Positions 4,300-9,386 of a stretch of 64,000 nt of DNA are shown piece after piece. Numbering within the stretch: the first letter of the stretch is position 1; each line of letters starts with the position of its first letter. Position numbers and translations under genes: made by a program. The notes beneath the pieces were generated by a model. It saw only the letters and a program-made list of their open reading frames with translations, did not search any database and was not told the origin of the DNA. Origin of the DNA: Endosaccharibacter trunci (GTDB lineage: Bacteria; Pseudomonadota; Alphaproteobacteria; Acetobacterales; Acetobacteraceae); assembly GCA_024515975.1 (NCBI GenBank), contig JAMSKV010000003.1:186001-250000 (forward strand). The letters are read 5' to 3'.

Positions 4300-4374
4300 G
4301 GCGGCGTAGCTCAGCGGTAGAGCAGGGGAATCATAATCCCTTGGTCGGCGGTTCAAATCCGTCCGCCGCTACCA
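4300..4374 (+). tRNA. tRNA-Met (anticodon CAT)
   Basis: A complete cloverleaf can be folded by eye. The acceptor pairs GGCGGCG with CGCCGCT (first pair G-U), the D stem is GCTC/GAGC, the anticodon stem is GGGGA/TCCCT with loop ATCATAA, the variable loop has 5 bases, and the T stem is GGCGG/CCGTC with loop TTCAAAT. CCA is encoded (4372-4374). Anticodon CAT fits elongator tRNA-Met; the absence of three G-C pairs above the anticodon loop and the G1-U72 pair argue against the initiator. The isoleucine tRNA whose CAU is modified to lysidine has the same anticodon and cannot be fully excluded. Confidence 0.94.
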
Positions 4375-6449: not shown

Positions 6450-6503
6450 AAGCGGCGTCTCAACGAGCGGGACGGTTCCGCCGCAAATCGGTGGCTGGAC
6501 CCA

Positions 6504-6537: not shown

Positions 6538-6703
6538 GACGGTTCGGAGGCGATTGGACCATTCCGTTCCCGTATCGTCTGTCGTCGGAGCGCGGTTCGG
6601 TCCCTGCTCCCCGTCCTCGTTTTGGCAAGCATCGTGATCCGGCCGAGCGACTTCGTTCGAACGGATGATGCTCTGAAAGGCCGCCCCTCCGGGCGGCCTT
6701 TTT
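6538..6703 (+). ncRNA. Candidate structured leader or small RNA ahead of the hydrolase cassette
   Basis: Between a promoter-like site and a strong intrinsic terminator lies about 165 bases without a convincing reading frame. Its 3' half can fold: AGCATC at 6628-6633 pairs with GATGCT at 6667-6672, enclosing the perfect palindrome CGTTCGAACG at 6654-6663. The terminator stem at 6676-6686/6691-6701 follows directly. This could be an independent small RNA, or an attenuated 5' leader of the cassette starting at 6724. No known RNA family was recognised. Confidence 0.33.
6676..6703 (+). terminator. Strong intrinsic terminator
   Basis: An 11-bp perfect stem (AAAGGCCGCCC with GGGCGGCCTTT), a 4-base loop and a run of five T. 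It ends 20 bases before the hydrolase start at 6724 and 227 or more bases after the esterase stop. Confidence 0.82.
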
Positions 6704-6723
6704 CATGTTCGGAGTGTTTGCGG

Positions 6724-7206
6724 ATGAGTTTCGACATGAGTTCGCCCCGGCTTGTGCTGGCCGGCACTGCTTACGGGGAATGCCGCGGCGGGGGCCGGAC
6801 GGGGATGGAGAACGTCCTCTCCGTGGTGATGTGCCGCTGGCGCGACGGGTGGGAAAACACCCCGCTCGCCGTTTGTCTGGCGCCGCACCAGTTTTCCTGC
6901 TGGGGCGACTGCAACAGAAGCGCGATCCTGTCCGCGTCCATGCGTGATCAGGCCAGCTGGGAACTCGCGCTCAGCATCGCCGACGCGGCGCTGGCTGGGA
7001 CGCTGCCGGATCGCACCGGCGACGCAGACAGCTATTACGCGCTGAGCATGGCGAAGCCTGCCTACTGGGCCCGCCCGCCCGCCCGGCACGTGGTTTCCGA
7101 CAACTGGCATTCCTTCTGGCGGGTGAACCGGACGCCCGCGACCGATGATGCCACCGACCAACTCAACCAGGCCGAACTCGCCGCCCATACCCTGGAGCCC
7201 GCATGA
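6724..7206 (+). CDS. SleB/CwlJ-type cell-wall hydrolase (endolysin-like)
   Basis: A predicted peptidoglycan hydrolase of the SleB/CwlJ family (Hydrolase_2). The ATG at 6724 gives 160 residues; the frame continues upstream to 6622, but that stretch crosses the terminator. The family signature is at the N-terminus: AGTAYGECRGGGRTGMENV, with the likely catalytic Glu in YGE, then VVMCRWRDGW and HQFSCW. There is no signal peptide, so access to the wall would need a holin-like partner or another export route, as for phage endolysins. Its stop overlaps the next start (ATGA), making it the first gene of a coupled five-gene cassette. The family call is good; the biological role is inferred. Confidence 0.85.
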   Translation: MSFDMSSPRLVLAGTAYGECRGGGRTGMENVLSVVMCRWRDGWENTPLAVCLAPHQFSCWGDCNRSAILSASMRDQASWELALSIADAALAGTLPDRTGDADSYYALSMAKPAYWARPPARHVVSDNWHSFWRVNRTPATDDATDQLNQAELAAHTLEPA

Positions 7207-7544
7207 CCGAATCCGTTTCCGTCGCCCCTTCGAGCTGGAGCATGGCCGTCCGGCATCTGCTCGACTGGTCGAAGCAGCCTTCCACGCAGCAGGGGCTGAG
7301 TCTGTTGATCGGCGGCGTGGTGCTGGCTTTTGCCCATCCGTTCGCGGCGGCGGAAGGCATTGCCGCGACGCTGATCGCGGCGAGCCTGCCCAAGCTGTGG
7401 CCGGACAACACCACGGATGCGATCCGTGTCGGCGTCCTGTCCAACGCGATCGCCCATGCCGCGGTGACGCGCAAATCGACGGATATCGCCGCCGTTGCGG
7501 AAGACGCGGTTGCCATTCTGAAGCCGGTTGGAGCTGCCGCATGA
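7203..7544 (+). CDS. Small membrane protein, holin-like by position
   Basis: A 113-residue protein without a family I recognise. The N-terminal 30 residues are polar (MTESVSVAPSSWSMAVRHLLDWSKQPSTQQ). One or two hydrophobic segments follow (about 32-66, GLSLLIGGVVLAFAHPF and EGIAATLIAASLPKLW), then an amphipathic tail. Its ATG overlaps the hydrolase stop by four bases (ATGA), and its own stop overlaps the next start in the same way. Size, membrane segments and position directly after an unsecreted wall hydrolase resemble a phage holin, but this is context only and no sequence match supports it. Confidence 0.75.
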   Translation: MTESVSVAPSSWSMAVRHLLDWSKQPSTQQGLSLLIGGVVLAFAHPFAAAEGIAATLIAASLPKLWPDNTTDAIRVGVLSNAIAHAAVTRKSTDIAAVAEDAVAILKPVGAAA

Positions 7545-8104
7545 AGATCCGTGACGTTCTGACCGCGTCATCGTCGCGTCGCGCTCTGCTGCGCGGCCTT
7601 CTCCTGGGCGGGGCAGCCCTGGGCGCAGGCGCTTGCACCGTGACCCATGGCGGCACTGTGATCACTGCGACGCTCGATCTGAACAGGATGCTGACGGACG
7701 GGCAGGCGATTCTCACCGCGCTCAACACGGCGCTTTTGATTCCCGGTATCGCGGCGATGCTCGGGGCGAATTTCGCGGCTGCTGAAACGGCCCTCGCCGC
7801 CGCCGGGGCCGCCATGACCGAACTGAAGACGCTGGCTGGCAGCAGCATTTCGGTCAGCATCGACGTTGCGCGCGTGCAGACGCTGGCAGCGAGCCTGCTT
7901 GCCGATTTTCAGACAGTTTTGTCGTTGCTGAGCAAGCTGGCGCCCGGCAGCACGGCGACATCGCGGCTTGCGCTGCTGATTTCCGCGGCCACCACGCTGG
8001 TACCGCTGGTGCAGAGCGCCGCGGGTCTGCCCGTATCGACGACCGCCATGCCCGGCGTGCGCATGACCGAGACCGAGGCGTTGCGCATCGCCCAGGGCGG
8101 GTGA
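7541..8104 (+). CDS. Lipoprotein of unknown function, possible Tat signal
   Basis: A 187-residue protein starting at the ATG overlapping the previous stop. The N-terminus reads SSRRALLRGLLLGGAALGAGAC: twin arginines, a hydrophobic stretch and a lipobox (LGAGAC), so a lipid-anchored and possibly Tat-exported protein. The mature part is rich in Ala, Leu and Thr, with long helical heptad-like stretches (about 50-165) and no cysteine beyond the anchor. I recognise no domain. In a lysis reading of this cassette it would occupy the place of an outer-membrane spanin, which is speculation. The stop overlaps the next GTG start (GTGA). Confidence 0.8.
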   Translation: MKIRDVLTASSSRRALLRGLLLGGAALGAGACTVTHGGTVITATLDLNRMLTDGQAILTALNTALLIPGIAAMLGANFAAAETALAAAGAAMTELKTLAGSSISVSIDVARVQTLAASLLADFQTVLSLLSKLAPGSTATSRLALLISAATTLVPLVQSAAGLPVSTTAMPGVRMTETEALRIAQGG

Positions 8105-8937
8105 ACCGGCCTTTTCGTTTCCCTCCCGGAGGACAGCGCCGTTTGATCGAACCGAACCGTTCCCTGAAGCTTGGCCGCAAACCGGCCCGTATCGACATCC
8201 GCACGCCGAAGCTCGGCGTCATGCTGAGCGCGCAGCTACCAGCGCCGCCCGCGTCTTGCGACCACGGCGCGCTGTTTTCCGGATGGAAGCTGTGGCGCAA
8301 CGGCGACCAGCTTGGCGGCCATGACCAGACCATTCCGGGCCTCGGCGACTGCACCGCGGTCAGTGTCGCCAGTGCCATTCGGGTCATGACCGGCGGCCGC
8401 GGCGGCGAGATCGAGCTGTCGGACGAGCAGGTGGTCGGGATCTATGAGGCCAATGGCTACGATCCCACCCGTCCGGCTACCGATCAGGGTGCGGTTGAAC
8501 TCGACGTGCTCGATCGCTGGTGCCAGGACGGCTACGCGATCGGGCGTCAGGCGCCGGACGTGCTGACCGCCTACGGCACGGTGGACTACACCCATCCGGA
8601 TTCGGTCCGGCGCGCCATCGCCATGCTGGGCGGCCTCTATATCGGCCTCGCCTTGCCGGACTATGCCCTTGTCCAGGGCACGGATTGGTGTGCCCAGGCG
8701 TCCAGGCCGCCCTCCGTCGGCGGCCATGCTGTGTTCCTGCATGGCTACGATGCCGACTGGCTGTATCTCAACAGCTGGGGCGAGCGGAAGCGGATGGACT
8801 GGGGTTTCTTTCGCAATTATTGCGATGAGTCCTACGGACTTCTGTCCCGCGACTGGCTCGATACGCGGGGTCATTCGCCGATGCACGAAAGCTTCGACGT
8901 GGTTGCGCAGGAGCTGCAGGCGGCGCGCTCGGCATGA
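8101..8937 (+). CDS. Papain-fold (C1-like) cysteine peptidase
   Basis: A 278-residue protein with three blocks that line up with papain-family peptidases. GDCTAVSVASAI (near residue 82) supplies the nucleophile Cys, GGHAVFLHGYD (near 210) the catalytic His, and LNSWGERKRMDWGFFRNY (near 223) the Asn and the typical NSWG-WG ending. The usual GxCW is GDCT here. No signal peptide is visible. The GTG at 8101 overlaps the lipoprotein stop; no ATG is available before the conserved core. Function could be proteolysis or peptide crosslink cleavage; pairing with a wall hydrolase suggests envelope work, by inference only. The next gene overlaps its stop (ATGA). Confidence 0.82.
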   Translation: MNRPFRFPPGGQRRLIEPNRSLKLGRKPARIDIRTPKLGVMLSAQLPAPPASCDHGALFSGWKLWRNGDQLGGHDQTIPGLGDCTAVSVASAIRVMTGGRGGEIELSDEQVVGIYEANGYDPTRPATDQGAVELDVLDRWCQDGYAIGRQAPDVLTAYGTVDYTHPDSVRRAIAMLGGLYIGLALPDYALVQGTDWCAQASRPPSVGGHAVFLHGYDADWLYLNSWGERKRMDWGFFRNYCDESYGLLSRDWLDTRGHSPMHESFDVVAQELQAARSA

Positions 8938-9386
8938 AGCGATATCGGGCCGCGTCGATGGCGGTGCTGCTGTCTCTCTCCGGCTGCGGAAGCCTGCAGG
9001 CCTGGCGTGCGCGCAGCGTCCTGCCCGGGGCGACCGAACCGGATCTGATCGCCTGCATGGGCGTGCCGGCGGAGAAACAGTATCTCAGCCGCGACCAGTC
9101 CGTGCTGCAATGGGACTACGCGCAGAGCGGCACGGACGTCGATCTCGAGTTGGGTATCTATGCGTTGAAGCTCGGCCGGCCCGGTTTGTGCCATGCCGCG
9201 ATCCGGTTCGATCGCGGCATCGCCATGTCGGTGCATTTCGCCGGATCGGTCGTGACGCCTACAGACCCGGACAGCGTGTGCGGCAGGCTGGTGCATGATT
9301 GCCTCATGCACCGGGAAAACACGAAACTGCCCGCCGATTTCAGCAATCTCGACATATTGGAGAACAAGCCGCCGACGCCGCCCTGA
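8934..9386 (+). CDS. Small lipoprotein, SmpA/BamE-like in outline
   Basis: A 150-residue lipoprotein: MKRYRAASMAVLLSLSGCGSLQ carries a signal sequence and lipobox (LSGC). The start of the mature part (LPGATEPDLIACMGVPAEKQYLSRDQSVLQWDY) resembles the SmpA/OmlA/BamE pattern of a helix followed by a G-x-P turn and a beta hairpin ending in a W-x-Y strand. Similarity is weak and BamE function is not claimed. Two further cysteines (VCGRLVHDC) could form a disulfide. It is the last gene of the coupled cassette; the convergent S10 peptidase gene ends 20 bases downstream. Confidence 0.78.
   Translation: MKRYRAASMAVLLSLSGCGSLQAWRARSVLPGATEPDLIACMGVPAEKQYLSRDQSVLQWDYAQSGTDVDLELGIYALKLGRPGLCHAAIRFDRGIAMSVHFAGSVVTPTDPDSVCGRLVHDCLMHRENTKLPADFSNLDILENKPPTPP

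Follow-up and report, generated by a model that had tools for sequence, protein, structure and literature searches.

A five-gene cassette of Endosaccharibacter trunci as the probable detached lysis operon of a domesticated contractile-tailed phage

The analysed window, a stretch of 64,000 nucleotides of contig JAMSKV010000003.1 of Endosaccharibacter trunci (Acetobacteraceae; assembly GCA_024515975.1, positions 186,001 to 250,000 of the forward strand), contained a cassette of five plus-strand genes, g1 to g5, which probably represents the release operon of a domesticated phage. The first gene, g1 (6724–7206), encoded an endolysin-like cell wall hydrolase of the SleB/CwlJ type, identified by Pfam and PHROGs searches. 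It was followed by g2 (7203–7544), encoding a small membrane-like protein that is a holin candidate, and g3 (7541–8104), encoding a predicted lipoprotein with an SRR (twin-arginine-like) signal. The fourth gene, g4 (8101–8937), encoded a homologue of the papain-family (C1) cysteine proteases with no visible signal peptide, and g5 (8934–9386) a small predicted lipoprotein whose wider family is common in Acetobacteraceae chromosomes. These coordinates agreed exactly with the initial annotation. On the same strand upstream of g1, a GGACCC element (6497–6502), the core of a promoter-like motif common to a phage structural cluster on the same contig, was found with the TTGA of the full motif missing in this species, and an intrinsic-terminator-like hairpin with a T run (6675–6704) ended about 22 nt before the g1 start. 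A tRNA-Met gene was located at 4300–4374, about 2.3 kb 5' of the cassette; the Komagataeibacter phages phiKX1 and phiKX2 carry tRNA-Met near one end.

The window belongs to the genome designated G000, and its four congeners were designated G001 to G004. The cassette-bearing members of the genus were G000, G002, G003, and G004, and G005 was taken as Endobacter medicaginis, of another genus. The four junctions in the window read ATGA, ATGA, GTGA, and ATGA as annotated, and the further argument that these overlaps set a fixed ratio of the five products was weak because only two of the four were conserved. The g1–g2 and g4–g5 overlaps were kept in all four cassette-bearing members, while the g2–g3 and g3–g4 junctions were gaps of 23–428 nt in the other three. 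Overlaps of four bases were also not rare in the window, where they occurred in six of 40 same-strand neighbour pairs of our own gene call, two of them within the cassette.

The g1 protein matched Hydrolase_2 of Pfam (E 3.2e-9) and resembled phage endolysins (phrog_938, E 8.8e-13). Residue Glu19, which we take to be the catalytic glutamate of the SleB/CwlJ family, was invariant in five of five aligned homologues. No strongly hydrophobic segment was present, in agreement with the annotated lack of a signal peptide and with an endolysin of a lysis cassette. The g2 protein was small and membrane-like as described, but no holin family was matched in Pfam and PHROGs searches, and only weak matches to PHROGs of unknown function were obtained. 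Among the four genus copies, only that of the window exceeded the hydropathy threshold of 1.6, as did the second protein of the Endobacter cassette. The name holin is thus a guess from position, since family matches were lacking and hydrophobicity was weak in the relatives, and g2 is an unproven candidate. The lipoboxes reported in the third and fifth proteins were recovered as an N-terminal lipobox-like cysteine in both g3 and g5. In g3, this cysteine and one arginine of the SRR motif were invariant in 19 of 19 sequences. The protein was alanine-rich, and its phage match came from phmmer and from a search with the low-complexity filter switched off.

The g4 protein belonged to phrog_19005 (3.8e-28) and gave a profile match to the papain-type xylellain 3ois (E 6.2e-9), with no Pfam match at E ≤ 1. 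Residues Cys84, His209, and Trp226 showed no variation among the 78 aligned sequences (78 of 78); the papain-type cysteine and histidine blocks noted earlier were therefore retained, whereas the asparagine of the NSWG block was not invariant. The predicted g4 model (predicted local distance difference test, pLDDT, 92.9) had a papain fold with xylellain 3ois again as the closest solved structure, which together with the catalytic-type Cys and His places g4, on the model, in papain family C1. The g3 model was helical, and its fold search gave no match at E ≤ 0.001.

The possibility raised in the initial annotation that homologues of the five proteins would be scattered and never together was not borne out. 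All five genes stood together in one order in G000, G002, G003, and G004, each time followed on the right by one and the same IDH gene, and this conservation of order in G002, G003, and G004 speaks against chance. To the left, an MscS gene was present in G000, G002, and G003, in the last at some distance, and none was found on the corresponding stretch of G004. The G001 genome was without g1 and g4, and no cassette was present beside its IDH gene. In G005, the five-gene order recurred at a different locus, with a second gene of no detectable similarity to g2. Single-gene homologues were also widely scattered in other genomes. All five frames were open in the four cassette-bearing species, and the ratios of nonsynonymous to synonymous differences (pN/pS) were 0.32–0.58 for g1, g4, and g5, as expected under purifying selection, 0.48–0.64 for g2, and 0.64–0.89 for g3, the least constrained. 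If the cassette were the functionless, decaying remnant of a prophage lysis region, its phage homology and the weakly constrained g3 would be accounted for. This is very improbable in view of the open frames, the constraint on g1, g4, and g5, and a terminator whose placement was kept despite a changed stem.

Beyond the genus, g4 was present in 23 of 147 related genomes. The wider g5 family, tried as a marker of standalone cassettes, proved too common to be of use (positive in 176 of 397 genomes). Several Acetobacter loci combined g3 and g4 with a relative of g5, some of them together with phage genes; one such locus, L110, carried tail genes and recurred as the IMG/VR locus L143. In six further Acetobacter loci (L096, L097, L100, L101, L109, and L111), a g4 homologue lay 3' of a purine-nucleoside-phosphorylase-like gene and adjoined a gene for a Crp/Fnr-like regulator, and none of its direct neighbours was recognised as a lysis gene; these neighbour names are our own reading of the sequences.

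Homologues of g3 and g4 were found in the late region of the temperate Komagataeibacter phages phiKX1, phiKX2, and phiKM1, where a 4-nt overlap joins the g4 homologue to a lipoprotein-like gene. The g3 protein resembled the lipoprotein-like phiKX2_660 and phiKM1_670, and g4 was a homologue of phiKX2_710. The initial annotation was right to liken the cassette to a phage lysis cassette. Neighbours of g4 homologues on viral contigs were also scanned (123 of 160 listed; same strand, 70–450 aa, positions −2, −1, and +1; seven near-duplicate loci omitted). Six peptidoglycan-hydrolase-type matches and one holin were obtained with Pfam, and at least seven endolysin matches with PHROGs among the 25 of 58 families shown, so that in most viral contigs no recognised endolysin adjoined g4. 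By its homology and its stable position, the cassette is phage-derived yet fixed in the host.

The initial annotation had found no phage structural gene or integrase nearby. For structural genes this fits the window as far as it was searched, no coat, Phage_capsid, or Baseplate_J match being obtained there, but a structural cluster was present on the same contig (C23 of G000, 106.9–128.1 kb), about 64 kb away and outside the window. The cluster contained genes for the small and large terminase, portal, scaffold-like protein, coat, sheath, tube, baseplate, and fibre, and would specify a contractile tail. Baseplate_J was matched in five of five genomes searched. The G000 coat was 67.9% identical to that of phiKX2 and fell below the cut-off for the N4-gp56 capsid model. 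No integrase, replication, or lysis gene was recognised in the G000 cluster, of which 14 genes were scanned against PHROGs and the rest assigned by similarity to phiKX2 and phiKM1, a few short ones being left unscanned. Contractile particles are the usual basis of tailocins, and the conserved sheath and baseplate would suit a cassette that releases a real particle for killing or defence rather than a DNA carrier. Such a tailocin-like role is unlikely because the packaging genes were kept: the large terminase (TerL), portal, scaffold-like, and coat genes were all present and constrained, and a headless bacteriocin would not need them.

The cluster was present in G000 to G005 and in G089. Its left flank was ruvX-gatC-gatA-gatB in G000, G001, G002, and G003. 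On the right, one common gene block followed the cluster in G001, G003, G089, and (by eye) G004, and the stretch from greA to ctaB in G000 and G002. The G005 cluster adjoined a tmk-holB-metG block (by eye), which was found further out in G003. The names of these flanking host genes are our own reading of the sequences. The pN/pS values, which are rough since pS was high, were 0.11–0.20 for the coat, 0.33–0.51 for TerL, and 0.07–0.19 for the tube, indicating purifying selection as expected for a gene transfer agent (GTA). In the cluster tree, G000 and G002 were joined first by G001, G003, and G004 and then by G089 and G005; a second G000 element fell outside this group, as did the G026 and G012 clusters. 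The cluster and cassette trees agreed in grouping G000 with G002 and in placing G003 and G004 on the opposite side; the host IDH tree was poorly supported. The shared flanks and gene order indicate vertical inheritance at a stable host locus, which is likewise characteristic of GTAs.

The second related phage element of G000, on contig C9 at about 23–57 kb, had tail genes of its own, and a lysozyme-like gene was read there by eye. Its presence makes it conceivable that the cassette serves another resident prophage such as this one. We regard this as the least probable of the alternatives, given that in G002, G003, and G004 the cassette has stayed next to one and the same host gene and that the lysozyme-like gene of the C9 element, as read by eye, lies beside its own tail genes.

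Coat relatives were found in 47 of the 147 related genomes, and seven genomes carried a coat at least 80% identical. Another five coat-positive genomes (G010, G018, G079, G086, and G065) had 55–58% coat identity. Among the 23 g4-positive genomes, 20 also had the coat (Fisher p 3.7e-9, or 1.5e-7 without the genus), statistics that ignore kinship among the genomes. In G063 and G065, g4 and the coat were within one element.

The two operons also shared a regulatory layout. The hairpin with a T run ended 21–23 nt before g1 in all four cassette-bearing members (z −3.8 to −5.5), and in G003 the hairpin was kept with a different stem sequence. The same arrangement preceded h10, which directly follows h9 in the structural cluster, at 21–34 nt before the start in G000, G001, G002, and G003. 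At the cluster, a TTGAC-GGACCC-TATAA promoter-like element was located 5' of the hairpin in G000, G001, G002, G003 (as GGGTCC), and G089. At the cassette, GGACCC was located 5' of g1 in four of four cassette-bearing members and not in G005, with the full motif in G002 and G004. A general sigma-70 scan gave no promoter in the upstream region of either operon.

When whole genomes were scanned with the strict motif, exactly two sites were found in the 3.8 Mb of G002, one at each operon, with none in the reversed control; reversed controls gave 0–1 per genome overall. The G004 genome had three sites, one at the cassette, and G000 had two, one at the cluster and none at the cassette. Five sites (two overlapping) were found in G001 and three in G089, one at the cluster in each. 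The other strict matches were inside or beside unrelated genes. The h9 gene lay directly 5' of the structural promoter and was conserved (60–71% to G000), and it may encode an antiterminator. The shared promoter-terminator layout is one of the results that tie the cassette to the cluster.

A further alternative is an independent host system for secretion or cell death, in which the papain-like protease g4 would be the cargo. Export by holin and endolysin is known as type 10 secretion, and both the lack of a visible signal peptide in g4 and its lone chromosomal copies in several Acetobacter species, with no adjacent lysis gene recognised, would fit it. This is nonetheless doubtful, as the promoter element and terminator are common to the particle cluster and g4 co-occurs with the coat gene.

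The endolysins of these genomes had a complementary distribution. Five of the seven genomes with a coat at least 80% identical carried the cassette (G000, G002, G003, G004, and G005). In the four members of the genus among them, the fibre gene was directly followed by a glycosyltransferase-like gene, and no endolysin was recognised there; the entire genomes of these four gave no GH108 match at E ≤ 0.001. In G001 and G089, both without g4, a GH108 endolysin followed the fibre gene inside the cluster (E 5.9e-17 in G001), and a second GH108 copy was present elsewhere in G001. In G005, the fibre gene was followed by a 102-residue protein without a family match and then by unscanned genes; two GH108 copies lay on other contigs, one of which (C31) also held phage tail genes. 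Such a complementary distribution of GH108 and the cassette would be expected if one release module had been swapped for the other. Taken with the shared layout and co-occurrence, the link between the cassette and the cluster is well supported.

A related arrangement was found in other genera. Loci were examined in three coat-positive genomes below 80% identity, G012, G026, and G088, in which a related cluster lay between the same host genes. The genomes of these other genera probably belong to acetic acid bacteria. Three sites of the palindrome TGGCAWWWTGCCA were present in G026. The first lay at the cluster, close to h9 and to an XRE-like regulator, the second before a detached module of a small membrane protein, g3, g4, and a lipoprotein-like gene, and the third before a 104-residue protein and a phiKX2_640-like gene (46% identical). 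In both detached modules, a terminator was located between the site and the first gene. The phiKX2_640-like gene is a putative lysis gene by virtue of its place in the phage, its PHROG being of unknown function.

The palindrome was searched in nine genomes, with reversed controls of 0 except for 1 in G013. Of three sites in G029, two were at the cluster and the g4 module, and the two sites in G041 were at the cluster and a phiKX2_640-like gene, with a g3-g4 pair left without a site. One cluster site each was found in G082 and G088, and G013 had no site at all. In G058, two of the nine sites lay near the coat gene, and two of the nine were looked into. The other genera provide an independent parallel, in which a different palindrome marks the related cluster and detached modules that include the papain-like gene. 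As a separate observation, five palindrome sites of G058 fell within 2.5 kb (G058:C251:150628-153072) at a metG/tatD-like block, the same block that flanks the G003 and G005 clusters.

Vesicle formation, secretion, GTA release, and cell death had been offered as functions of the cassette, and GTA release is the option favoured by the evidence. We consider it probable that the cassette is a lysis operon detached from the other genes of a domesticated phage with a contractile tail, most likely a GTA, and it would probably serve the release of DNA-carrying particles that move genes between cells. Transfer of host DNA by the particle is suggested because the packaging genes were kept and the cluster was vertically inherited. 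In the proposed mechanism, promoters sharing the GGACCC element would turn on the particle and lysis genes together, and a phage-type regulator, perhaps h9, would let RNA polymerase pass the terminator placed directly before each operon. The g2 protein would then permeabilise the inner membrane and g1 would cut the peptidoglycan. The lipoproteins g3 and g5 could act at membranes, and g4 might cleave an envelope or particle protein during release.

Several observations weigh against release of a GTA by the cassette. The system is known here from its genes, one of the species (G001) has the cluster but not the cassette, and the G+C content was 61.6% in the cluster versus 67.5% in the window. A rough comparison of side-chain carbon revealed no GTA-like low-carbon bias of the structural proteins relative to phage homologues. 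On the regulatory side, the g1 promoter of the window lacks TTGA and so falls outside the strict matches, G003 has no strict site, and no terminator was found before g1 or h10 in G005. Family searches with h9 matched only an unnamed PHROG and no known antiterminator. The palindrome left unexplained sites, namely all of those in G012 and G052 and one each in G029, G082, and G088. Among the proteins, g2 was weakly hydrophobic in the relatives, g3 gave no phage match with the low-complexity filter on, and no spanin family match was obtained for the five proteins of the window in the PHROGs scan.

Like RcGTA and the RcGTA-like elements (Rhodogtaviriformidae), the present system would have a vertically inherited phage-like structural cluster with genes in several loci; RcGTA genes are in five loci (PMC9662315), and Rhodobacter capsulatus is lysed by a holin-endolysin route (PMC13236601). 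It differs in its contractile tail and in its coat of phiKX2 type. An RcGTA-type element was rejected as a candidate: the GTA_TIM domain was found in none of six genomes, with a positive control in Caulobacter vibrioides, and Phage_capsid in none of the four cassette-bearing members. One Phage_capsid match each was obtained in G001 and G005, away from the structural cluster.

In CcGTA of Caulobacter crescentus, a regulator binds a palindrome between the −35 and −10 elements, and GafZ is proposed to load there and read through a terminator after the first gene (PMC11150451). A palindrome in this position and a downstream terminator that an antiterminator would bypass are likewise proposed for the present system. 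In contrast, the terminator here precedes the first gene and the lysis genes are phage-like, whereas CcGTA lysis is by LypABC without holin-endolysin homologues (PMC13236601). BaGTA and BhGTA are likewise domesticated phage particles, but they have no tail, a short one, or a non-contractile one, and the consulted part of the classification paper that describes them mentions no contractile tail (PMC9662315).

The temperate Komagataeibacter myophages phiKX1, phiKX2, and phiKM1 share g3 and g4 with the cassette, and phiKX2 has homologues of the coat, terminase, portal, sheath, and baseplate genes. Their genomes are 52–54 kb with integrase genes (Omata et al. 2021, PMC8566455), unlike the present case, in which the structural operon and the lysis operon lie apart, each at its own fixed place in the host chromosome. 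In the same study, myovirus-like particles were obtained from 15 of 177 acetic acid bacteria, and phiAO1 of Acetobacter orleanensis NBRC 3170 is reported there as a 34.1 kb particle genome without an integrase.

No description of an Acetobacteraceae GTA was found in the open-licence papers searched, and one may nonetheless have been published. One paper reports phage-like contigs that carry baseplate motifs and match Acetobacteraceae genomes, and it names GTAs as a general outcome of cryptic phages (PMC12142844). A wider proposal, to which we give an even chance, is that the Acetobacteraceae harbour an undescribed, independently domesticated lineage of contractile-tailed GTAs. A single promoter element, together with promoter-proximal terminators, would couple its structural operon in trans to its detached lysis operon with a papain-like protease, resembling antitermination of phage late genes. 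The release module would have been exchanged at least once, between GH108 in the cluster and the five-gene cassette elsewhere, and other genera would have a second version with a different palindrome. Few GTA lineages have been genetically resolved, and a contractile-tailed GTA across the Acetobacteraceae, many of whose members are in culture, would add one more independent case of phage domestication. With a distant lysis operon coupled in trans by a shared promoter element and terminator, it would become directly testable how domesticated phages with dispersed genes manage to lyse the correct cell at the correct moment. The widespread papain-like family phrog_19005, which is listed as of unknown function, also gains a first role that can be tested.

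Two minor observations concern the surroundings and the spread of g4. Between g3 and g4 of G004 (L035:4274-4670), an open reading frame of 66 aa had an N-terminal hydrophobic stretch and a start that overlapped the g3 stop; a lipoprotein-like frame nested in this region would make a Rz/Rz1-like spanin pair by architecture, with no family match. Papain homologues of the g4 type were also present, among loci L112–L141, in Streptomyces, Spirosoma, and Chitinophaga, and in metagenome-assembled genomes of Gemmatimonadetes, Planctomycetales, and Thermoplasmata.

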